A stretch of 64,000 bases of DNA from Agaribacterium sp. ZY112 (GTDB lineage Bacteria; Pseudomonadota; Gammaproteobacteria; Pseudomonadales; Cellvibrionaceae): contig NZ_CP166840.1 of assembly GCF_041346925.1 (NCBI RefSeq), forward strand, positions 434,001-498,000. Reading direction: 5' to 3'. Under the pieces are notes generated by a model. That model was not told the origin of the DNA. It made no database searches and was given only the letters and a program-made list of their open reading frames with translations. Below, one piece after another: positions 27,686-58,453 of this stretch (position 1 is the stretch's first letter; every line of letters begins with the position of its first letter). A program made the position numbers and the translations under genes.

Positions 27686-28099
27686 CTAAGATTCAACTTG
27701 CTCATAAATAGAAACAGAAACACCTTCAGTGTCTAATAGAATCAGTTGCTTCCCAGCTTGTTTGTAAGCCTTAACTTCGGAAAAAGTACTAAAAATCAAC
27801 TGTTCTAATTTATTTTGGTCTTCTGCACAAAGCATACGAGTTGCCGCAAAAGGCCCAAGCTGCAAGCTGCCTTTATCATTGATTCTTTGCTGGCCATTAA
27901 AGCGATTACAGCCGCTGCGACCTGTCACACTCGCCCCATCCACTAACAAATCAGCATTCACACCAATAGGAGGCTCCTGGCCCTGCACGCTAAGCAACTG
28001 CCAATGACCATCAGGTAAAAGTGTCATCGTTTCTGACTTATGAGGCTGCGAACAACTCGCAAGCGCAAGCATGGTGAAGCCTAAACAGTATTTCAGCAT
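27686..28099 (-). CDS. META-domain (HslJ-like) lipoprotein
   Basis: 137 residues with a short lipoprotein signal (Leu-Ala-Ser-Cys at about residue 16). The mature part has the META-domain hallmarks: a DGHWQLLSVQGQ strand, the SGCNRFNGQ motif with the conserved Gly-Cys-Asn, and a late AATRMLCAEDQNKLE segment whose Cys may pair with the first. HslJ-like proteins are linked to stress and envelope tolerance, with no known enzyme activity. It lies 11 bp after the Omp85-type gene in the same direction, so the two are probably co-transcribed. Confidence 0.85.
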   Translation of the reverse strand: MLKYCLGFTMLALASCSQPHKSETMTLLPDGHWQLLSVQGQEPPIGVNADLLVDGASVTGRSGCNRFNGQQRINDKGSLQLGPFAATRMLCAEDQNKLEQLIFSTFSEVKAYKQAGKQLILLDTEGVSVSIYEQVES

Positions 28100-28110
28100 T
28101 GTATTCTCCT

Positions 28111-29217
28111 TTAAAATGCCTGACCAAATTGAATATAAAACCCTTTGTTCTTATACTTTCCTGCAGCAATTTCTGCTCGAACAATCATTTTTTCCTGCTC
28201 TTTAAGTGTGTAAGTGACACCACCACCAATAGCGGGGTAGAGGCTCTCATCATCCGAACAGCTCTGTTCATCGCCGTAAAGACAGGCAAGCCCCATAAAG
28301 CCACTTAACCCCCATTTTCCTTTTAAGGGATAACGTTCCTCTAGCTCCACGGTCCAAGTATTGGGAGCTAAGTATTCCCCACGAGTATAACCACGTAACT
28401 TAATAGAGCTATATGCGCCTTTAGGCGCATCATTAGTCCAACGACCATAGACATGACTAGCGAGCACACCTTTTGAACCATGCGTATAAAAGTGACTAAA
28501 ATCGAGTTCATAAGTGTCAAAACTTTCGTCACCACCTAAGGCTTCTCTATACGCCGTATTATTCAGATTCAGATAAGAACCCGAACTCGGTGAGTGCTGA
28601 TTGTCTCGCGCATCGTATTCCACCACAGCGCCAATACCATTACTGCTAAAGCCATCTAGACCTATGGCTTTGAGAAAGGCCTTGGTTTGTTCATCACGTC
28701 CGTCGATCTCATAATCCATATCAACAGCCTGAGCTCCAAGATACCAGTCGCCTTTTACTTGTGTGGTATAACGAAGAAACAAACCTTTTAGCCTATCAGT
28801 AGTCAGTGCATTAAAGCCTGTTCCTAGGAAATCCTCATAATCATTTTCTATACGACCACCAAAGGCTCCAGCTAATAAACGATGCCTATCAGCTGCAAAA
28901 TAATTTTTAGAAAACATGCCATAAATAGTGGAGTCAGTATTACTGTAACTACCCATAATACCCAACATAGAAGTAGGGCTTTTTTTATCCGCTTTAAATA
29001 AATAAGCGCCCATTGCACCAATACTTGTGCCCATTTTAGGGTCGGCACTTAAGGTTGGCGTAGCCAGCCAAGGTGATTCTTTTTTCTTGCTAGCATTTAC
29101 CTTGCTCGGCTCTTGATCAACATGCTTTGTTTTTTCTAAGTCACCACTCTCTGCGCTTAAGACAGAACAATAGAGAGAAAAGAGCATAAGAAAAGCAACT
29201 TCAGTGTGCTTACGCAT
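28111..29217 (-). CDS. POTRA-less Omp85/BamA-like outer-membrane protein (copy 1)
   Basis: 368 residues with a signal peptide and a barrel similar to the C-terminal domain of BamA/TamA. The KLRGYTRGEY stretch is the conserved (V/L)RGY motif of the barrel lid loop, and the chain ends in Phe (YIQFGQAF), as needed for outer-membrane insertion. No POTRA domain precedes the barrel, so it is unlikely to assemble proteins by itself; such short members resemble patatin-less 'surface antigen' proteins. A second gene with the same design is at 45458-46735. Confidence 0.8.
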   Translation of the reverse strand: MRKHTEVAFLMLFSLYCSVLSAESGDLEKTKHVDQEPSKVNASKKKESPWLATPTLSADPKMGTSIGAMGAYLFKADKKSPTSMLGIMGSYSNTDSTIYGMFSKNYFAADRHRLLAGAFGGRIENDYEDFLGTGFNALTTDRLKGLFLRYTTQVKGDWYLGAQAVDMDYEIDGRDEQTKAFLKAIGLDGFSSNGIGAVVEYDARDNQHSPSSGSYLNLNNTAYREALGGDESFDTYELDFSHFYTHGSKGVLASHVYGRWTNDAPKGAYSSIKLRGYTRGEYLAPNTWTVELEERYPLKGKWGLSGFMGLACLYGDEQSCSDDESLYPAIGGGVTYTLKEQEKMIVRAEIAAGKYKNKGFYIQFGQAF

Positions 29218-49910: not shown

Positions 49911-50993
49911 ATGCGACGCTTTCGCTCTCTACTTATTTGTTTTATGGCTTCTGCTGCTTTAACAGCCTGCCAAACTCAAACCCAGACTCCAACTGACAGC
50001 ACAAGCGCTGATAGCAAGGAGATGCCTCGCATTAGCAATTATCAAACGGGTCGTCTTGAAATCTACGATGACAGGGCTCTGAACTTCTTTGAGCAAGACC
50101 AACAAGCCCATGTACTTGCAGAAGGTTTCGAGTGGACTGAAGGCCCTCTGTGGGTAGAGAGCGGTCAATACCTTTTGTTCTCAGACATTCCACGCAATAA
50201 AATTATGAAATATGAGCCTGAGTCAAAAACACTCAGTACCTATCTAGATAACTCCGGTTGGAGCAGTTCAACCCATCTTGAAGGTTACGGCTCCAATGGT
50301 TTGTTATTAAATCAGAACGATGAATTAATATTAATGCAAACAGGGCAACGCCAAGTCGCACTTATGCAAGCGAGCTTGGAGCAACCCAAAAGTGAGTTCC
50401 TTAGCCTCGCCTCTCACTATCAAGGTAAACGCTTAAACAGCCCCAATGATGCGGTATTTGATAACAACTTCAATCTGTATTTTACCGACCCAACTCACGG
50501 TTTAAACGATAAAGACAAGCGTTATTCAGAGCTCGACTTTAGTGGTGTCTATCGTATCAATGCCGATAAAGAGTTAAGCCTTGTCAGCGATGAACTGAGC
50601 TTTCCAAATGGCATTGGCTTATCAACTGATGAAAAAACGCTGTATGTTGCGGTCTCAGATAAAACCCATGCCGCTTGGTACCACTTTGATGTAAAGAGCG
50701 ATGGCAGTTTAGGTAAAGCCAAGATTTTTTATGACGCCAAAGAAGAAGTAGACACAAGCGATAAAGAGCACCCAGGTTTGCCAGATGGCATGAGTGTGCA
50801 CAGCAGCGGCGCCATCTTTGCTACAGGCCCCCATGGTTTATGGTTATTTGCCCCAGACGGCACAGTATTAGCGCGAGTATTTATTGACTCGTTGGTATCC
50901 AACGCCGAGCTTAATGCTGATGAAAGCGTTGTTTACCTAAGTGCCGACGACTATCTTATGAGCTTTAATATCAAAAAAGGCGCTCATCTTTAA
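49911..50993 (+). CDS. SMP-30/gluconolactonase-like lipoprotein
   Basis: 360 residues with a lipoprotein signal peptide (Leu-Thr-Ala-Cys at about 20). The six-bladed propeller of the SMP-30/gluconolactonase family carries its metal ligands in GFEWTEGPLW (Glu), NSPNDAVFD (Asn) and GLPDGMSV (Asp). It is likely a periplasmic or surface lactonase for a sugar lactone; the exact substrate is unknown. It is divergent to nagA, separated by 201 bp. Confidence 0.87.
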   Translation: MRRFRSLLICFMASAALTACQTQTQTPTDSTSADSKEMPRISNYQTGRLEIYDDRALNFFEQDQQAHVLAEGFEWTEGPLWVESGQYLLFSDIPRNKIMKYEPESKTLSTYLDNSGWSSSTHLEGYGSNGLLLNQNDELILMQTGQRQVALMQASLEQPKSEFLSLASHYQGKRLNSPNDAVFDNNFNLYFTDPTHGLNDKDKRYSELDFSGVYRINADKELSLVSDELSFPNGIGLSTDEKTLYVAVSDKTHAAWYHFDVKSDGSLGKAKIFYDAKEEVDTSDKEHPGLPDGMSVHSSGAIFATGPHGLWLFAPDGTVLARVFIDSLVSNAELNADESVVYLSADDYLMSFNIKKGAHL

Positions 50994-51046: not shown

Positions 51047-51991
51047 CTAACTCAGTAATAACTGAGTAAAAGCATGCCTCAAGTTATAAGTATCACGATC
51101 TTCCATAAACAAAAACTGACCCGATGGGTTAATTTCAAGAAAGACCCACTCTCCTTTTGAATTTTGCCTAAAATCCAAAGCGCCATAATCCAAGCCCAAG
51201 ACCTTCATCAAACTGAAAATCATAGTTTGTAACTCTATAGGCAAAGAGATGCTTAGCCACTGAACAGACGTATCGAGACGCCAATCGAGATACGCCACTT
51301 CTGAGCGACTAGATACTTCCGCAGCAAAGACTTGATCACCAATAACAGTAACCCTTACATCACGCCCCAAATCAATTAACTCTTGAAAGATCACAGGAGC
51401 GTACTTCAGCGTTTGCAAGTCCTCATTGAGTTCCTCACTCCACTCTCGAGTTTCTACAATGCGCCAAGATGGAGAGTGAAAAGCCTTAAAGACAACACGC
51501 CCCTTATACTTAGCAACAAAATCTCGAACAGCATTCGGATCATTGCACATTAGAGTATCAGGAATGTTAAGACCTAAGGCTTTTGCATGCTTAAGTTGAT
51601 AGGGCTTATGGTCCGCCATAGACTGCTGCAAAGGATCGTTAATTAAACGGCAACCCGAGGCCAATAAAGCTCCACGAATTAAACGATCACTTTCAATTAA
51701 GCAGTAGTTGCGCACTCGCGGGTCATCAATGTCATCGGGTATCTCCGCTGCCATAGGCCTACGCCACCAGCATGATGCATATTGAGACAGCTCTATACTA
51801 CGCTCACCGACGCCATCAAGAACAACACCTCGACTGTCGCTATAAAATGAAAGTTGCTGCTTAGCAGGAAAACCCGAACTATCCCAAATTTGCACCTCGG
51901 CTAATTCTTTTGACTCAATATACGCTGCGATATCCTGAGCGTGAGCATCGTCTTGCGGCGCCAGAATTAAAACCTTGTTCTTAGTCACCAT
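51047..51991 (-). CDS. MvdD/RimK-like ATP-grasp ligase, possible peptide or protein modifier
   Basis: 314 residues. The N-terminal region has the CWWRRPM stretch typical of MvdC/MvdD-type ligases. RLINDPLQQSMADHKPYQLKHAKALGLNIPDTLMCND is the family's ATP-grasp entry, DVRVTVIG is the (D)xR strand, LDYGALDFR and FLEINPSGQFLFME carry the metal-binding Glu and Asn. MvdC/MvdD-like enzymes join Ser/Thr or Lys side chains to Asp/Glu of precursor peptides (graspetides). Its ATG lies inside the end of the upstream gene (7-bp overlap), so that protein is the obvious partner. No transporter or protease gene is adjacent. Confidence 0.82.
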   Translation of the reverse strand: MVTKNKVLILAPQDDAHAQDIAAYIESKELAEVQIWDSSGFPAKQQLSFYSDSRGVVLDGVGERSIELSQYASCWWRRPMAAEIPDDIDDPRVRNYCLIESDRLIRGALLASGCRLINDPLQQSMADHKPYQLKHAKALGLNIPDTLMCNDPNAVRDFVAKYKGRVVFKAFHSPSWRIVETREWSEELNEDLQTLKYAPVIFQELIDLGRDVRVTVIGDQVFAAEVSSRSEVAYLDWRLDTSVQWLSISLPIELQTMIFSLMKVLGLDYGALDFRQNSKGEWVFLEINPSGQFLFMEDRDTYNLRHAFTQLLLS

Positions 51992-52758
51992 GGAAAGTTC
52001 AAACCTCCACGGAAAGAACCGTGACCACTATCATCTTGCTCTTCATCAGCTCTTGCATCAGCCACATAATAAACCCCATATGAATCACAGGTAGGCAATA
52101 ATAAACCGGTCATTTTAGTACAGGTTCCCTGAACCGCTGTTTGATAAGCAGTGCTATAAGAACAGCTAGTACTATTATCCTTATTAAGGCCACCAGGTGA
52201 AAAACCACCAAAATCCAAATCGGGTAAGTCGACACCAGGAATACGCCCAGGATACTCCCATTCAATTGGAGGTAACTCTTTAGGCCCTGGTAAATCACCA
52301 CCAACACCTGTACGGCCAATGCTTAAAACCTGTTCCGCAGCTGAGGGCTGCAATAAAACAAAAGGATTATTGTTGGCTAATTTTTCAAGGGGGATGGTGA
52401 TATCGCTACCGGGCTTCGGAATTTCAAACGGGTCAACCACACCAACAACTTGCTGGTTAAAATCAGTAATAACTAAAACGCCACTTGTCATCGGCTCCTG
52501 ACCTTCTTTATAGGTCGCAAAAACCGTGTGATGTAACTTGGTATGAGGGTTGTAAAGAAGTTCAAACACATTTGAAACTTCCATACCTGACTCAAACACT
52601 TCGGCCAGTACTTGTAATACTCGCTTATCCTGCATAGAGGCGCGAGTATTATTTGGATACACACGCTCAGTTTCAGTCTTTGTTAAATCGTCATCAAATA
52701 ACGATGCCAATGTATTCAGTTTTTCTTCAGTTTTACTACTAGGTTTACATGCTTCCAT
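51985..52758 (-). CDS. Candidate substrate or partner protein of the ATP-grasp ligase
   Basis: 257 residues with no match that I recognise. Residues about 1-125 look like a folded, mixed alpha/beta leader with an acidic Leu-Phe-Asp-Asp-Asp stretch. Residues 140-185 are Pro/Gly-rich (GDLPGPKELPPIEWEYPG). The C-terminal 70 contain three Cys and many Ser/Thr (NSTSCSYSTAYQT), then an Asp/Glu-dense ADARADEEQDDSGHGS, ending in FRGGLNFPW. Donor hydroxyls followed by acceptor acids near the C-terminus are what a graspetide precursor would need, but the protein is far longer than known ones. It is the first gene of the pair; AAGGAT lies 13 bp before the ATG. Confidence 0.6.
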   Translation of the reverse strand: MEACKPSSKTEEKLNTLASLFDDDLTKTETERVYPNNTRASMQDKRVLQVLAEVFESGMEVSNVFELLYNPHTKLHHTVFATYKEGQEPMTSGVLVITDFNQQVVGVVDPFEIPKPGSDITIPLEKLANNNPFVLLQPSAAEQVLSIGRTGVGGDLPGPKELPPIEWEYPGRIPGVDLPDLDFGGFSPGGLNKDNSTSCSYSTAYQTAVQGTCTKMTGLLLPTCDSYGVYYVADARADEEQDDSGHGSFRGGLNFPW

Positions 52759-52896
52759 CTCTACATATCCTTATATAGTGTAAGAACGTCAATAAACAAT
52801 ATAACTCCCGTTTTTTACCGTTTATTTATATTACTTACCTCAGGACTTGTAACAAGGAAACTGAGTCACATATTTAGATTATATATGAGGGCTAAA

Positions 52897-52972: not shown

Positions 52973-54484
52973 TTATAGGAAGAAAGTGTAAGCGGGGTTC
53001 TTACTTTCATCCCAGTAGCTGTAATTAAGATCATCTAATAACTGCTCTAAATCTTTGCGCTCGGCTTTAGGCACTTGCATGCCAACCAATACCCGCCCAA
53101 ACGCAGAGCCGTGGTTGCGATAGTGGAACATACTTATATTCCAGCGGCCTGCTAGCTTAGTTAAAAAGTTAAGTAGAGCACCTGGGCGTTCAGGAAATTC
53201 AAAACGGTACACACATTCATCATTGGCCTCAGGCGCTTTACCTCCAACCATATAACGCGTGTGCAACTTGGCCATTTCGTTGTCGGTCATATCGACAACC
53301 TCATAACCTGCACCTTGCAGCTTAGCCAGTATCTCTTCTCTATCGTTCTTATCCGGGCTAACCGCTAAACCGACAAAAATATGTGCTTGCTCATTATCTC
53401 TATAACGATAATTGAACTCGGTAATCGCACGGCGCCCCAGCAACTGGCAGAATTTTTTATAAGCACCCGGTTTTTCAGGAATGGTCACGGCAAAAATCGC
53501 TTCGCGCTTTTCCCCAATTTCTGTGCGCTCACTGATATAGCGAAGTCTATCGAAATTGGTATTGGCACCACTGTCGATGGCAACCACCGTTTTACCCTGC
53601 CAGTTATTAGCAGCCACATATTTTTTCAAACCAGCAAGAGACAATGCACCTGCAGGCTCCGCAATAGAGCGAGTATCTTCAAAAATATCTTTGATTGCCG
53701 CACACATTTCATCGGTACTTGCAGTAATCACCTCATCGACGCTTTCTTTGAGTACTCGATACGTTTCTTTACCGATCTGGGCGACAGCCACACCTTCGGC
53801 AAATAGGCCAACATGGCTCAAGGTGGCTCGGCGCTTTTTATCCCAAGCCAGCTTTAAACAAGCGCTGTCTTCGGCCTCAACCGCAATCACCTTGGTCTCT
53901 GGGCGAACGTGTTTAATATAAGCGGCAACACCGGCAGCCAAACCACCGCCGCCAACAGGAACAAAAACCGCATCGATATCACCGCTGTATTGGCGCAATA
54001 TCTCCATGCCAACAGTACCTTGCCCAGCAATCACATCACCGTCATCAAATGGATGCACATAGGTTAGGCCTTTTTCTTCCACCAACTTATTGGCGTGAGC
54101 AGCCGCTTCATCATAGGTGTCACCAACTAATACCGCCTTGGCACCACGGCGACGTACCGCATCCACTTTAATTTGTGGTGTCGTACGTGGCATAACGATG
54201 GTTGCCGCCACCCCCAAGTGCTGCGAAGCAAGCGCCAAACCTTGAGCGTGATTCCCTGCCGAAGCAGCGACAACACCCTTGGCTTTTTTGTCATCACTAA
54301 GCAAGCGTAATTTGTTATAGGCACCGCGAATTTTAAAACTGAATACAGGCTGTAAATCTTCGCGCTTGAGCAATACCTTGTTATCGCAGCGCGCGCTAAT
54401 CAGTGGGACTTCATCCAAAGGTGTTTCTATGGCGAGGTCGTAGATACGCGCATCGAGGATGCGTTTGATATAAGTTGCTGGCAT
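52973..54484 (-). CDS. ilvA: Threonine ammonia-lyase, biosynthetic (IlvA)
   Basis: 503 residues. The N-terminal PLP domain has the Schiff-base Lys in FSFKIRGAYNK, the ASAGNHAQG loop, and the GGGGLAAG phosphate cup. Two ACT-like regulatory domains (about 325-410 and 425-500) end the chain, the allosteric arrangement for isoleucine inhibition and valine activation. It deaminates threonine to 2-oxobutanoate for isoleucine synthesis. In many Gammaproteobacteria ilvA lies divergent to rpiA; here a GH117 gene separates them. Confidence 0.96.
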   Translation of the reverse strand: MPATYIKRILDARIYDLAIETPLDEVPLISARCDNKVLLKREDLQPVFSFKIRGAYNKLRLLSDDKKAKGVVAASAGNHAQGLALASQHLGVAATIVMPRTTPQIKVDAVRRRGAKAVLVGDTYDEAAAHANKLVEEKGLTYVHPFDDGDVIAGQGTVGMEILRQYSGDIDAVFVPVGGGGLAAGVAAYIKHVRPETKVIAVEAEDSACLKLAWDKKRRATLSHVGLFAEGVAVAQIGKETYRVLKESVDEVITASTDEMCAAIKDIFEDTRSIAEPAGALSLAGLKKYVAANNWQGKTVVAIDSGANTNFDRLRYISERTEIGEKREAIFAVTIPEKPGAYKKFCQLLGRRAITEFNYRYRDNEQAHIFVGLAVSPDKNDREEILAKLQGAGYEVVDMTDNEMAKLHTRYMVGGKAPEANDECVYRFEFPERPGALLNFLTKLAGRWNISMFHYRNHGSAFGRVLVGMQVPKAERKDLEQLLDDLNYSYWDESKNPAYTFFL

Positions 54485-54928: not shown

Positions 54929-57900
54929 ATGAAAACCTATCTAGGGTTTGCAAGGTGGCGACATGTCCTCGCCGCAGTTTTATGCTCACCATGTTTATTT
55001 GCCAATGCCGAAACCATTCGCACTGAAGCGGAAGATTTTTTAAGTTTAGGCGGCGATTATAACGACCAACAAGCTCAGCCAATTAGTGTTTACAGTGTTA
55101 ACGGTAGCACAGCCCTTAATTACGTAAACCGAGGCGATTATGCCGAATACTCTATTGATGTTAATACAGCGGGTAATTACGACTTATCGTATTTCATTGG
55201 TACCGCTGTAAGCAGCAACGTTGAAATCAGCCTAGAGATTAACGAGGGCGGAAACTGGAATAGACTTGCCGCAACCGAAGTCCCCATGTGGGGCTGGGAT
55301 AACTTCCAGGCACTTGAGCACGAACAAACGATTGCTCTACCTTACGGAAGCCACACTATTCGTGTTTACGCCAGCGGCAGCAATGACTGGCAGTGGAACT
55401 TAGATGCCTTCGAATTAAACTTGGCATCGGCAACCCCTAGCCCATCACCAAGCCCTAGCTTGAGCCCATCGCCAAGTCCTTCGCCCTCACCGAGTGTGAG
55501 CCCAAGTCCTTTAGTCTCACCCAGCGCTTCGCCAAGCCCAAGCCCAAGCCCAAGCCCAAGCCCAAGTATGATTGAGCTTGTTATTGAAGCGGAAGACTTT
55601 AATAACACCGGCGGTAGCTATGTCGACAATCAAGCAGAAGCGGTTAGTCGTTATAGCGTCGGTGACATCAGTGGCATTAATTACGTCAATCGCGACGACT
55701 ATGTCGATTACCAAATCGATATTGCTCACGCCGGTAGCTATGAAATCAGCTTTAACGCCGGCACCGCCGTCGATGGTGCCGCTATTGAGTTTTTCTTGTT
55801 AGAAAATGCAAGCTGGCAGTCTTACGGTTTAACGCCTGTCGACAACACCGGCTGGGATAACTTTCAAATCTATAAAGCGGATAGCGAAGTACAGCTTAAC
55901 GCTGGCCAACACAGCGTGCGCTTACAGGCGTCAGGCAGCCACGACTGGCAGTGGAATTTAGATTTGTTCAAGCTAACACTGGCTGGCTCAAGCCCCATTG
56001 CCTCACCAAGCCCTTCCGTGAGCCCAAGCCCTTCAGTAAGCCCAAGCGCCTCACCTAGCCCCGCAGTGACTCCTTCGCCAAGTGTTAGTCCTTCACCAAG
56101 TCCATCTCCAAGTCCATCTCCAAGCCCAAGCCCTTTGATAAGCCCGTCACCGAGCCCACTACCTAGTCCTTCACCTAGTGTTAGCCCTGTGACCGAGCTG
56201 CTTATAGAAGCGGAAGATTTTACCGAAGTCGGCGGAAGCTTCAGCGATGGTCAAGTTGAAGCGGTCAGCACCTTTAGTGCGGGCGATGTGATTGGTGTTA
56301 ATTATGTCAATCGCGGCGATTACATGGATTACCTGGTCGATGTCTCCATTGCCGGTCGCTACGGTATTAGCTACCGAGCCGGTACTGCAGTTGATGGCGC
56401 CCAAATCGAGCTACTACAACTACAAAATGGCCAGTGGCTATCCATCGGCATAACCGATGTCGCTAAAACCGATTGGAACGACTTCCAAGATTATCAGGCT
56501 AACTACAGCATTGATTTAAACAAAGGCGAACAACACATTCGCATTCAAGCAACACAAAACTCAGACTGGCAGTGGAACTTAGACTCCTTTAGTTTCTCAC
56601 TAGAGCAAGCCTTGGATACCACCGTCTTTGGTATTCAATTTAGTGATGACTTCTTTGCTATTTGCGCAAACGAGCATATTCAACAGCATGCTTATACTGG
56701 CTTTGAACAAATCACGGAACTTGATTGCTCCGCATCAAACATCAGCAACGTGAGTGATCTCCAGTATTTCAGCGCACTGGAACAGCTTGATCTTAGTGAT
56801 AACCAAATCACCAACATCAATGTTGATTCGCTAGCTGCCCTACAAGAATTAAACATCTTAAATAACCGCTTAAGTCGCTCAGACTTAGATTATCTAAAGA
56901 GCCTTTCCCTTAACCTTATTGCTGATGACCTTATTGTTACCAGTGTTGCCGGCACAGGTATAAGCATTAACCCCGGCTCTGCCGGTGCAAGTTTTGGCGA
57001 AAGCTTAAGTTTCACTATCGACGTAGAGCAGGGCTGGTTACTTGAAGACATCATCGGTTGTGATGGTCAACTCCAGGGTAATATTTTTAACACCTCAGCG
57101 CTTTTAGCTGACTGCCAACTAGAAGCATTAAGCTCTGAAGATCAAGGCCAGCAATTTAGTGGTTACGTGTTTGAACAAGGCACAAATACCGCACTGTTTG
57201 GTGTTGAAGTAAAAGTGTTTACCGACAATGTTGAACAGGCTCTTGTAGCTAGCACTGATATGACCGGTTATTTTGAAATAACCAGTTTCGATAGCCCGCC
57301 ACAAACATTAACTTTTGAACACGCTGACTATATGTTTGAAGAGTTTAATGAACAAAGCCCGCAGCAAGGCTTAAATATCGAACTTCGCAAACGAGTAAAA
57401 AGTGCCGCTACCGTACGCTGGGAAGGCTACCTTGCCGCTAATAACACCAGCCTAAATTACGTCAACAAACCTGAGTGGGCCGTGAACTTCAGCCAAAGTA
57501 ATTTAAGTGGTGACTTCACGCCTAATCAAAACATCATTCGCCGCGACCCAAGTGCCGTGCTTGAAATCGATGGTTTGTATTACAACTGGTATAGCTACTG
57601 CGTCGGTTATTACGTCGGTTTTGGTAGCAGCGACCCAGAAGGCAAAGTATTCCCTTGGGATAAGTGTGATATTTATTACGCCACCTCAAGCGACGGCTGG
57701 ACTTGGAATGAGCAGGGCCCTGCAGTCGTACGCGGCCCTGAAGGCGCTTTTGATGATAGATCCGTATTTACTCCTGAGGTCCTCAAGCATGAGGATCGCT
57801 ACTACTTGGTTTACCAAGCAGTTAAAGCGCCTTATACCCAAAGAGTTAAAAACACCGTCGCTATGAGCTGGTCCGATTCGCCAACAGGGCCATGGACTAA

Positions 57901-58453
57901 ACTCGACAAACCGATTTTAAAAGCGACCAATAATGGTATTTGGCAGGGCACGGCTGACGATCATTTTGCCGCGATTAAAAAAGGCGATTTCGACAGCCAT
58001 AAAGTACACGATCCAACACTCTTACACTTCAACGGTAAATTCCATCTTTATTATAAAGGTGAGCGTATGGGTGAAGAGCGTTACTTCGGACAGCGTGAAA
58101 TCAAATGGGGTGTCGCCACCTCAGAACATCCTTTTGGCCCTTATGAAAAGTCGGTTAGCAACCCGATTACCAATACCGGCCACGAACTTGTTATTTGGAA
58201 ATACAAAAACGGTATCGCTTTGATCAACACCTTGGATGGGCCTGAGCGCAACACCATTCAATATGCTGAAGACGGTATTAATTTTGAAATCCAAAGTACG
58301 GCTAATAACCTGCCTCATGCGCAAGGTTTATTCCGCTCACCGGTAAGCGATACCGATCCACATGCAGGTGTGAGTTGGGGTCTAGGCCACGTGATGGTTT
58401 GGAATATCCCCGGTGGCTGGATGTATATCAACCGCTTTGAAGTTCAGCGTTAA
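54929..58453 (+). CDS. Secreted GH117-family glycoside hydrolase with three CBM6 modules
   Basis: 1174 residues with a signal peptide (residues 1-27). Three CBM6 modules (about 31-168, 216-355, 428-565) share EAEDF, NYVNRxDYxDY and DWQWNLDxF. Ser-Pro linkers separate them. Then come a short LRR stretch (about 590-670), a beta-repeat segment, and a carboxypeptidase-regulatory-like domain (750-815). The C-terminal 345 residues are GH117: RRDPSAVL, DDRSVFTPEVL, KVHDPTLL, YYKGERMGE, NTGHE and DGPERNT. Known GH117 enzymes remove 3,6-anhydro-L-galactose from neoagaro-oligosaccharides, so an agar-type substrate is likely; related substrates remain possible. Such size and modularity are unusual for the family, which is about 400 residues. 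Confidence 0.9.
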   Translation: MKTYLGFARWRHVLAAVLCSPCLFANAETIRTEAEDFLSLGGDYNDQQAQPISVYSVNGSTALNYVNRGDYAEYSIDVNTAGNYDLSYFIGTAVSSNVEISLEINEGGNWNRLAATEVPMWGWDNFQALEHEQTIALPYGSHTIRVYASGSNDWQWNLDAFELNLASATPSPSPSPSLSPSPSPSPSPSVSPSPLVSPSASPSPSPSPSPSPSMIELVIEAEDFNNTGGSYVDNQAEAVSRYSVGDISGINYVNRDDYVDYQIDIAHAGSYEISFNAGTAVDGAAIEFFLLENASWQSYGLTPVDNTGWDNFQIYKADSEVQLNAGQHSVRLQASGSHDWQWNLDLFKLTLAGSSPIASPSPSVSPSPSVSPSASPSPAVTPSPSVSPSPSPSPSPSPSPSPLISPSPSPLPSPSPSVSPVTELLIEAEDFTEVGGSFSDGQVEAVSTFSAGDVIGVNYVNRGDYMDYLVDVSIAGRYGISYRAGTAVDGAQIELLQLQNGQWLSIGITDVAKTDWNDFQDYQANYSIDLNKGEQHIRIQATQNSDWQWNLDSFSFSLEQALDTTVFGIQFSDDFFAICANEHIQQHAYTGFEQITELDCSASNISNVSDLQYFSALEQLDLSDNQITNINVDSLAALQELNILNNRLSRSDLDYLKSLSLNLIADDLIVTSVAGTGISINPGSAGASFGESLSFTIDVEQGWLLEDIIGCDGQLQGNIFNTSALLADCQLEALSSEDQGQQFSGYVFEQGTNTALFGVEVKVFTDNVEQALVASTDMTGYFEITSFDSPPQTLTFEHADYMFEEFNEQSPQQGLNIELRKRVKSAATVRWEGYLAANNTSLNYVNKPEWAVNFSQSNLSGDFTPNQNIIRRDPSAVLEIDGLYYNWYSYCVGYYVGFGSSDPEGKVFPWDKCDIYYATSSDGWTWNEQGPAVVRGPEGAFDDRSVFTPEVLKHEDRYYLVYQAVKAPYTQRVKNTVAMSWSDSPTGPWTKLDKPILKATNNGIWQGTADDHFAAIKKGDFDSHKVHDPTLLHFNGKFHLYYKGERMGEERYFGQREIKWGVATSEHPFGPYEKSVSNPITNTGHELVIWKYKNGIALINTLDGPERNTIQYAEDGINFEIQSTANNLPHAQGLFRSPVSDTDPHAGVSWGLGHVMVWNIPGGWMYINRFEVQR
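55432..55571. repeat. Ser-Pro linker repeat 1 of the GH117 gene
   Basis: Repeated AGCCCAAGC-type hexamers encoding alternating Ser and Pro between CBM6 modules one and two. Such DNA is prone to slippage, and length may vary among strains. Confidence 0.85.
55984..56196. repeat. Ser-Pro linker repeat 2 of the GH117 gene
   Basis: A longer Ser-Pro linker between CBM6 modules two and three, with mixed TCACCAAGT/CCAAGCCCA units and occasional Val, Ala, Ile or Leu. Confidence 0.85.

Follow-up and report, generated by a model that had tools for sequence, protein, structure and literature searches.

In microviridin-type graspetide systems (MdnB/MdnC, MvdC/MvdD), precursors are short and a leader motif, which starts with Pro-Phe in PFFARFL, usually lies within the first 30 residues; graspetide enzymes are believed to be activated by a proline-hydrophobic motif of this kind, Phhx(1,2)h (PMC8939145). 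In contrast, corallotide CorA/CorB (group 15) pairs a synthetase of the TIGR04187 type with a precursor that is unusually large (~22 kDa in its His-tagged form), and groups 34, 35 and 41 also have long or large precursors; CorA carries five KxxxD repeats, in which Lys is linked to Asp, and an oxygenase partner is needed (PMC13097080). In the rosaritide system MirA/MirB/MirC (group 21), as described in the same paper, the synthetase gene is accompanied by one for a larger protein whose fold is unclear, MirC, a required partner that is distinct from the precursor, MirA. Finally, the fuscimiditide synthetase ThfB cyclises whole proteins placed in its substrate (PMC12291112) and uses a repositioned leader (PMC13003496).

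The locus described here lies in a 64,000-nucleotide stretch of the Agaribacterium sp. ZY112 genome (hereafter, the window). It consists of a gene for an ATP-grasp ligase and a gene for a 257-residue protein (the partner), which share 7 bp (Table 1). As with the microviridin-type enzymes, to which the ligase is related by HMM and PDB sequence matches, the locus contains a motif starting with Pro-Phe, i.e., PFVL; however, it begins at residue 132 of 257, and the ligase scores below the MvdC and MvdD equivalog cut-offs. Unlike CorA, the partner has no KxxxD repeats and a single Lys in its tail, with no additional gene and, unlike in the rosaritide system, a separate precursor was not seen in the interval. 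Whereas the protein substrates of ThfB were engineered, the partner is a proposed natural substrate of protein size. What is distinct here is a non-repetitive partner of no family with an internal tag, in a branch of ligases whose other partners include enzyme-sized proteins. The initial annotation had proposed a new ATP-grasp modification system with a substrate-like partner, arguing that known precursors are short and that a large leader would define a new class. The enzyme type was borne out, and the partner does lie where many related ligases have their precursor. Because long precursors are already known, the claim of a new class by length is unsupported.

Table 1. Features of the locus and of genes upstream of related ligases (positions are those of the window, or of the locus where an L number precedes them)
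Feature	Position	Strand	Basis or remark
Graspetide-synthetase-type ATP-grasp ligase, 314 aa	51047..51991	-	TIGR04187, PF21068, PF08443, PDB relatives
Ligase DFR motif, residues 273-275	51167..51175	-	D273 and R275 unchanged across 16 aligned ligases
Ligase Glu286 and Asn288	51128..51136	-	16/16 aligned ligases
Orphan partner, probable substrate, 257 aa	51985..52758	-	No family, structure or sequence relative; overlaps ligase; carries PFVL
PFVLLQPSAA, partner residues 132-141; PFVL (132-135) is the proposed docking tag	52336..52365	-	ORF counts, shuffles
Gly/Pro-rich linker, partner residues 151-195	52174..52308	-	Composition: 10 Gly and 8 Pro of 45; GG at 153-154
Partner C-terminal region 196-257, proposed cross-linked core	51988..52173	-	Composition and shuffles; predicted role
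Gene overlap	51985..51991	-	Trp codon and stop of partner share bases with ATG-GTG start of ligase; sequence
AAGGA, ribosome-binding-site-like	52768..52772	-	Nine bases 5' of partner ATG; by reading
Threonine dehydratase, ilvA-like, flank	52973..54484	-	PALP and Thr_dehydrat_C; 93% identical in G003
SMP-30/gluconolactonase-like flank	49911..50993	+	PF08450; 62% identical ilvA neighbour in G003
L036 upstream ORF, M43 (pappalysin-like) metalloprotease, 522 aa	L036 3433-5001		Overlaps ligase by 4 bp
L029 upstream ORF, M43 metalloprotease, 577 aa	L029 2303-4036		109 bp before ligase
L063 upstream ORF, M43 metalloprotease, at least 432 aa	L063 2470-3768	-	78 bp before ligase
L064 upstream ORF, M43 metalloprotease, at least 477 aa	L064 9-1442		58 bp before ligase
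L065 M43 metalloprotease upstream of ligase			
L078 upstream ORF, 189 aa by chosen start (mechanical ORF 212 aa)			Overlaps ligase by 17 bp
L037 upstream ORF, 165 aa			9 bp before ligase
L080 upstream ORF, 98 aa as annotated			Overlaps ligase by 4 bp

The best NCBIfam match of the ligase was TIGR04187 (E = 1.9e-63), although its score of 214.6 bits did not reach the curated cut-off of 350 bits. It also matched the models for MvdD (TIGR04184; E = 1.1e-52, 179.3 bits, cut-off 475), MvdC (TIGR04185; 161.9 bits, cut-off 425) and RimK (TIGR00768; E = 7.5e-14, 51.7 bits, cut-off 143.4), in each case below the cut-off. Two Pfam domains exceeded theirs, i.e., the MvdD pre-ATP-grasp domain PF21068 (29.9 bits; cut-off 27) and the RimK ATP-grasp domain PF08443 (25.8 bits; cut-off 21). 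The matches to TIGR04187, TIGR04184, PF21068 and PF08443 agree with the initial description of an MvdD/RimK-like ATP-grasp ligase. The best sequence relatives in the PDB were 5ig9 and 5ig8 (ATP grasp ligase), 7mgv (CdnC), 7m4s (AMdnB), 9bou and 7drm. A "DFR" motif is critical in graspetide synthetases (PMC13097080). The ligase has this motif, since Asp273 is kept in all 16 aligned ligases and Arg275 is invariant; Glu286 and Asn288 are equally conserved. We take Glu286 and Asn288, together with Asp273, to be the usual ATP-grasp metal ligands. Its sequence identifies the ligase as an ATP-grasp enzyme of the graspetide-synthetase type that keeps the catalytic residues, and it is predicted to form ω-ester or ω-amide links, each with a loss of 18 Da.

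A tree of 72 rows comprised the window's ligase, 40 chosen loci and 31 protein relatives out of the 119 others listed; L065 was left out because of runs of N. The ligase clustered with four ligases from metagenomes (52-54% identity; support 100/100), and this group lay within a 25-row clade that includes L078, a ligase on a phage contig (98/86). A 32-row clade includes L037 (93/84), and a 37-row clade, with modest support (87/78), adds L036, L029, L063, L064 and the long-branched L080. The closest ligases among the matches listed were 52-58% identical (P0003-P0007 and P0009, the last from Halomonas sp. GXIMD04776). Genome searches, with the genome of the window included, gave matches in 9 of 390 genomes for the order, 4 of 369 for the class, 2 of 398 for the phylum and 9 of 144 for the family, and the ligases listed besides the window's own were all at most 36% identical; another search within the same class gave matches in 4 of 180 genomes. 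There were eight ligase matches in 275 Halomonadaceae genomes (best identity 34%), the searched family being presumed to be Halomonadaceae from 16S signature positions (G095 fits 11 of 15; a 16S was obtained from only 9 of 30 genomes). Scanning genome contigs with window-specific peptides yielded one distant locus, while scans of viral contigs yielded the ligase loci L078, L079, L095 and L097.

The arrangement of the two genes bears on their relationship. The Trp-stop overlap in the window fixes the Met-Val start of the ligase, and all five complete ligases of its own clade start with Met-Val, the other four (MVG, MVN, MVG and MVG) also permitting a Trp-stop overlap. Met-Val starts occurred in 10 of the 120 listed ligases; besides the five of this clade, they were found in P0009, which is closely related but has a record starting at an internal position, and in four ligases of 33-43% identity. 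These starts are a hint that the overlap has been kept across the clade. In G003, a genome of the same genus, ilvA is followed after ~200 bp by an SMP-30-like gene on the opposite strand, and the pair is missing; in the window these flanking genes are 1,979 bp apart, and the two spacers are barely alignable. Because G003 lacks both the ligase and the partner between the same two flanking genes, the two behave as a unit. The SMP-30-like gene of G003 has one stop inside the match, a TAA within the matched stretch (L103; G003:C2:165851-166852), and may be decaying. ilvA was also found in G001 and G002, neither of which had an SMP-30 match at E = 1e-40.

The 20 remaining ORFs of at least 25 residues in the interval were 25-69 residues long, and 18 of them overlapped the ligase or partner genes; none of the 20 was precursor-like. 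Scans of the locus were near chance both for promoter-like sequences (6, with 4.3 expected) and for terminator-like sequences (1, with 1.7 expected). That the partner is itself a chance ORF was ruled out by its 257 intact codons, the ribosome-binding-like site, the ligase overlap and the joint absence in G003. Six of the seven neighbouring proteins between 45.4 and 58.5 kb had Pfam matches and the seventh had none. The initial annotation had noted that no transporter was adjacent, and this held for these six, which included neither a transporter nor a C39-type peptidase; by reading, the partner does have a GG at residues 153-154. The peptidase of a graspetide system is often encoded outside the locus (PMC8939145). 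Retention of the modified product inside the cell, as had been suggested, is only compatible with the absence of a nearby transporter. One product of the wider region (54929-58453) is a 1174-residue protein that combines a GH43 domain with three CBM6 modules connected by linkers of Ser-Pro repeats.

The partner was originally described as a protein of no recognised family that overlaps the ligase gene by 7 bp. Its coordinates were confirmed, and it gave no match at E = 10 in NCBIfam, Pfam or the PDB sequences. Against 5.8 billion proteins, in a search that detects only relatives sharing 5-residue words and of similar length, the whole partner had no relative at E = 1, and residues 150-257 had none at E = 10; nor was there a homologue in the 96 other genomes of the 97 searched. 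A single-sequence AlphaFold model was uninformative (mean pLDDT 36), although helices and strands were predicted at low confidence for the N-terminal ~130 residues. Its GC3 (0.318) was lower than those of the ligase (0.41) and of three neighbours (0.42-0.45). When it was compared with the proteins encoded upstream of the ligases in L009, L037, L073, L075, L078, L080 and L084-L087, the best local scores were met by at least 10% of shuffles. An HMM of the L073/L075 repeats found its best position on the partner at residues 129-145 (E = 0.23). A beta-rich likeness to the L037 and L080 proteins, seen by eye, was dropped.

The C-terminal region of the partner (residues 196-257) contains 17 Ser/Thr/Cys, 1 Lys and 7 Asp/Glu residues, with ADEEQDD at 237-243 and FRGGLNFPW at 249-257, the features singled out in the initial annotation. 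The Ser/Thr/Cys content is unusual, in that the densest 20-residue window (11 such residues) was equalled in 0.18% of 5,000 shuffles and the densest 25-residue window (12 residues) in 0.62%. The acid cluster is less so, five Asp/Glu in six residues occurring in 4.2% of shuffles and the cluster over eight residues in 19%. These shuffle tests of composition were post hoc.

The PFVL motif of the partner (residues 132-135) lies in the context NNPFVLLQPSAAEQV. PFVL, which was noticed first and counted afterwards, occurred in 8 of 2,237 mechanical ORFs of at least 50 residues in the window and the fetched loci. Six of the eight were directly upstream of a ligase, i.e., the partner, the M43 metalloproteases of L026/L029, L036, L063 and L064, and the precursor of L079; as the four M43 proteins are related, the six cases represent three lineages. 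The other two were unrelated mechanical ORFs (window 28099-28308 and L037 2298-2759). Among ORFs of at least 200 residues, PFVL was present in 5 of 338, and later, with more loci, in 5 of 351, all upstream of a ligase. A Fisher test was set aside because the metalloproteases are related and the table was filled after looking. The L079 precursor, on a phage contig, is an ordinary one of 78 residues ending 8 bp before the ligase, in which PFVL (TPFVLNW) occupies residues 20-23, the usual place of a leader motif. PFVL arose in 0.56% of shuffles of the partner and 0.045% of shuffles of the L079 precursor. It was absent from the partners in L078, L037 and L080, which had the looser PVAL or PYAI, or neither; matches of this looser kind often arise by chance. 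The more general pattern Phhx(1,2)h had a single match in the partner, PFVLLQ at residue 132, but 82% of shuffled partners also have one. A synthetase still functions with the leader moved behind the core (PMC13003496). We infer that PFVL, which this orphan shares with other proteins encoded beside such ligases, serves as a docking tag for the ligase.

The M43-ligase pairs (L029, L036, L063, L064 and L065) resemble the locus in having a ligase from a neighbouring branch, an upstream partner of protein size and an exact PFVL. Unlike the partner in the window, they have a recognised Peptidase_M43 domain (E = 8.3e-16 in L036 and 3.1e-14 in L029; the L063 and L064 proteins align with both) and, ahead of PFVL, long tails made of repeats. 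The tails consist of Thr-x-Asp units in L036 and of long Lys-Asp/Lys-Glu-Pro repeats in L029, L063 and L064, and the motif follows in the contexts VAPFVLSTPHH (L036), GLPFVLATPAT (L029, also numbered L026 and L088) and LQPFVLATGQ (L063, L064). After PFVL, the M43 proteins have a conserved, helix-like C-terminal end. They come from Burkholderia, Halomonadaceae and another gammaproteobacterium. Because Thr-Asp and Lys-Asp/Glu are acceptor/donor pairs of graspetide chemistry, the M43 proteins are plausible substrates, and possibly the metalloprotease itself is cross-linked. Proteases beside synthetases, of group 32 among others, have been considered possible maturation or resistance factors (PMC13097080). 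The main text of that paper contains neither "M43" nor "metallopeptidase", and we found no report of a pairing of M43 proteins with graspetide ligases in the open-licence literature, supplements aside.

In the 37-row branch, all seven other rows for which DNA was available had a same-strand ORF of 98-577 residues that overlapped the ligase gene or ended at most 110 bp before it (Table 1). In L078 (4379-5999, on a viral contig), the ligase and its overlapping ORF, which ends GTKCTSLLCFEKGHDDFD, adjoin what appears by eye to be a phage portal gene. Outside the branch, many upstream ORFs were precursor-like (~57-184 residues, several with repeats), although there was no clear precursor beside the ligase of L071. 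Large upstream neighbours also occurred there: a 359-residue protein overlapping the ligase gene in L030, where a separate 60-residue precursor-like ORF is also present, a 251-residue protein in L022, a transporter in L074, and another ligase in each of L007, L031 and L072. Clearly, some of these large upstream neighbours are not substrates, and, given L030, L022 and L074, size alone is therefore no evidence of a substrate.

Several of the fetched loci had recurring layouts. In the window's own family, a 175-residue ORF ending 8 bp before the ligase in L073 and a 173-residue ORF in L075 encode two-repeat precursors; each repeat carries P(V/L)VLxFPP(A/T)AY and FDIG..SGGT(I/V)SFC.RGG.GAAYRCD, a pattern conserved in two genomes of one genus. 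L023, L032 and L095 have precursors with Thr-Lys-Thr...Asp-Asp repeats upstream of the ligase and, like L021 and L024, encode after it a protein of 213-356 residues with apparent membrane segments, usually in an overlapping frame. In L030, L090 and L091, from one ligase branch, a short precursor-like ORF accompanies a ~350-residue protein that looks like an accessory protein, encoded directly before the ligase in L030 and after it in L090 and L091.

We think it probable, from the sequences compared here, that the 257-residue partner is the substrate of the ligase, docked through PFVL and cross-linked in its C-terminal region. The two genes would form one translationally coupled cassette. The ligase would dock on PFVL in the middle of the partner and use ATP to activate acidic side chains in the C-terminal region; nearby Ser/Thr hydroxyls or the single Lys would then attack, giving ω-ester or ω-amide cross-links within the final ~60 residues. 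The N-terminal ~130 residues would serve as an extended leader or be a passenger domain. Because no transporter or peptidase gene was found beside the pair, the product may be the cross-linked protein as such, or a general protease may release a peptide from it.

Other relationships between the two proteins have to be weighed against this. The partner might be a chaperone or recognition protein that activates the ligase, with the true precursor encoded elsewhere in the genome. There is a precedent in MirB, which depends on MirC, a protein encoded alongside it and with which it copurifies (PMC13097080), and L030 has both a large, ligase-overlapping neighbour and a separate small precursor-like ORF; the helices and strands predicted at low confidence in the N-terminal part of the partner would also suit such a role. 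However, the interval contains no other precursor-like ORF, the partner has an acceptor- and donor-rich tail of its own, and PFVL is found at the leader position of a 78-residue precursor as well, so that we regard a MirC-like role as unlikely. The RimK-like catalytic core (PF08443, and the TIGR00768 match) raises a different prospect, i.e., that the ligase tags the partner as RimK does, modifying its C-terminus or side chains with amino acids or a small molecule; PGM1, a distant ATP-grasp ligase, couples a peptide with a nonproteinogenic amino acid (PMC8939145). Such tagging seems quite improbable for an enzyme that scores far better against graspetide maturases than against RimK, that has an MvdD-type pre-ATP-grasp domain and whose nearest solved relatives are graspetide synthetases.

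The lack of any detectable homologue of the partner, together with its GC3, which is lower than that of the ligase and the neighbours, would fit a fast-evolving or decaying gene with no working relation to the ligase. Its uninterrupted reading frame and overlap, its absence jointly with the ligase in G003, the shared PFVL and the Met-Val starts of the clade, which fit a kept overlap, make this very unlikely. Taking the partner as the substrate remains our preferred reading.

A wider and distinctly more tentative proposal is that a set of graspetide synthetases cross-links large natural proteins, PFVL being a tag carried by unrelated clients, i.e., the orphan partner, the M43 proteins and the 78-residue precursor. 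In one survey, precursor candidates were taken only from clusters in which most members had 150 residues or fewer (PMC8939145); if the proposal is correct, loci of this kind would be invisible to at least that survey. The stapled proteins described so far are engineered ThfB substrates (PMC12291112). PFVL-guided enzymes would then be natural, tag-directed protein-stapling ligases, and a tag of four residues plus an enzyme would provide a simple natural route to stapled proteins. Side-chain cross-linking by ATP-grasp enzymes would not be confined to peptide natural products, but would reach whole proteins, metalloproteases included.
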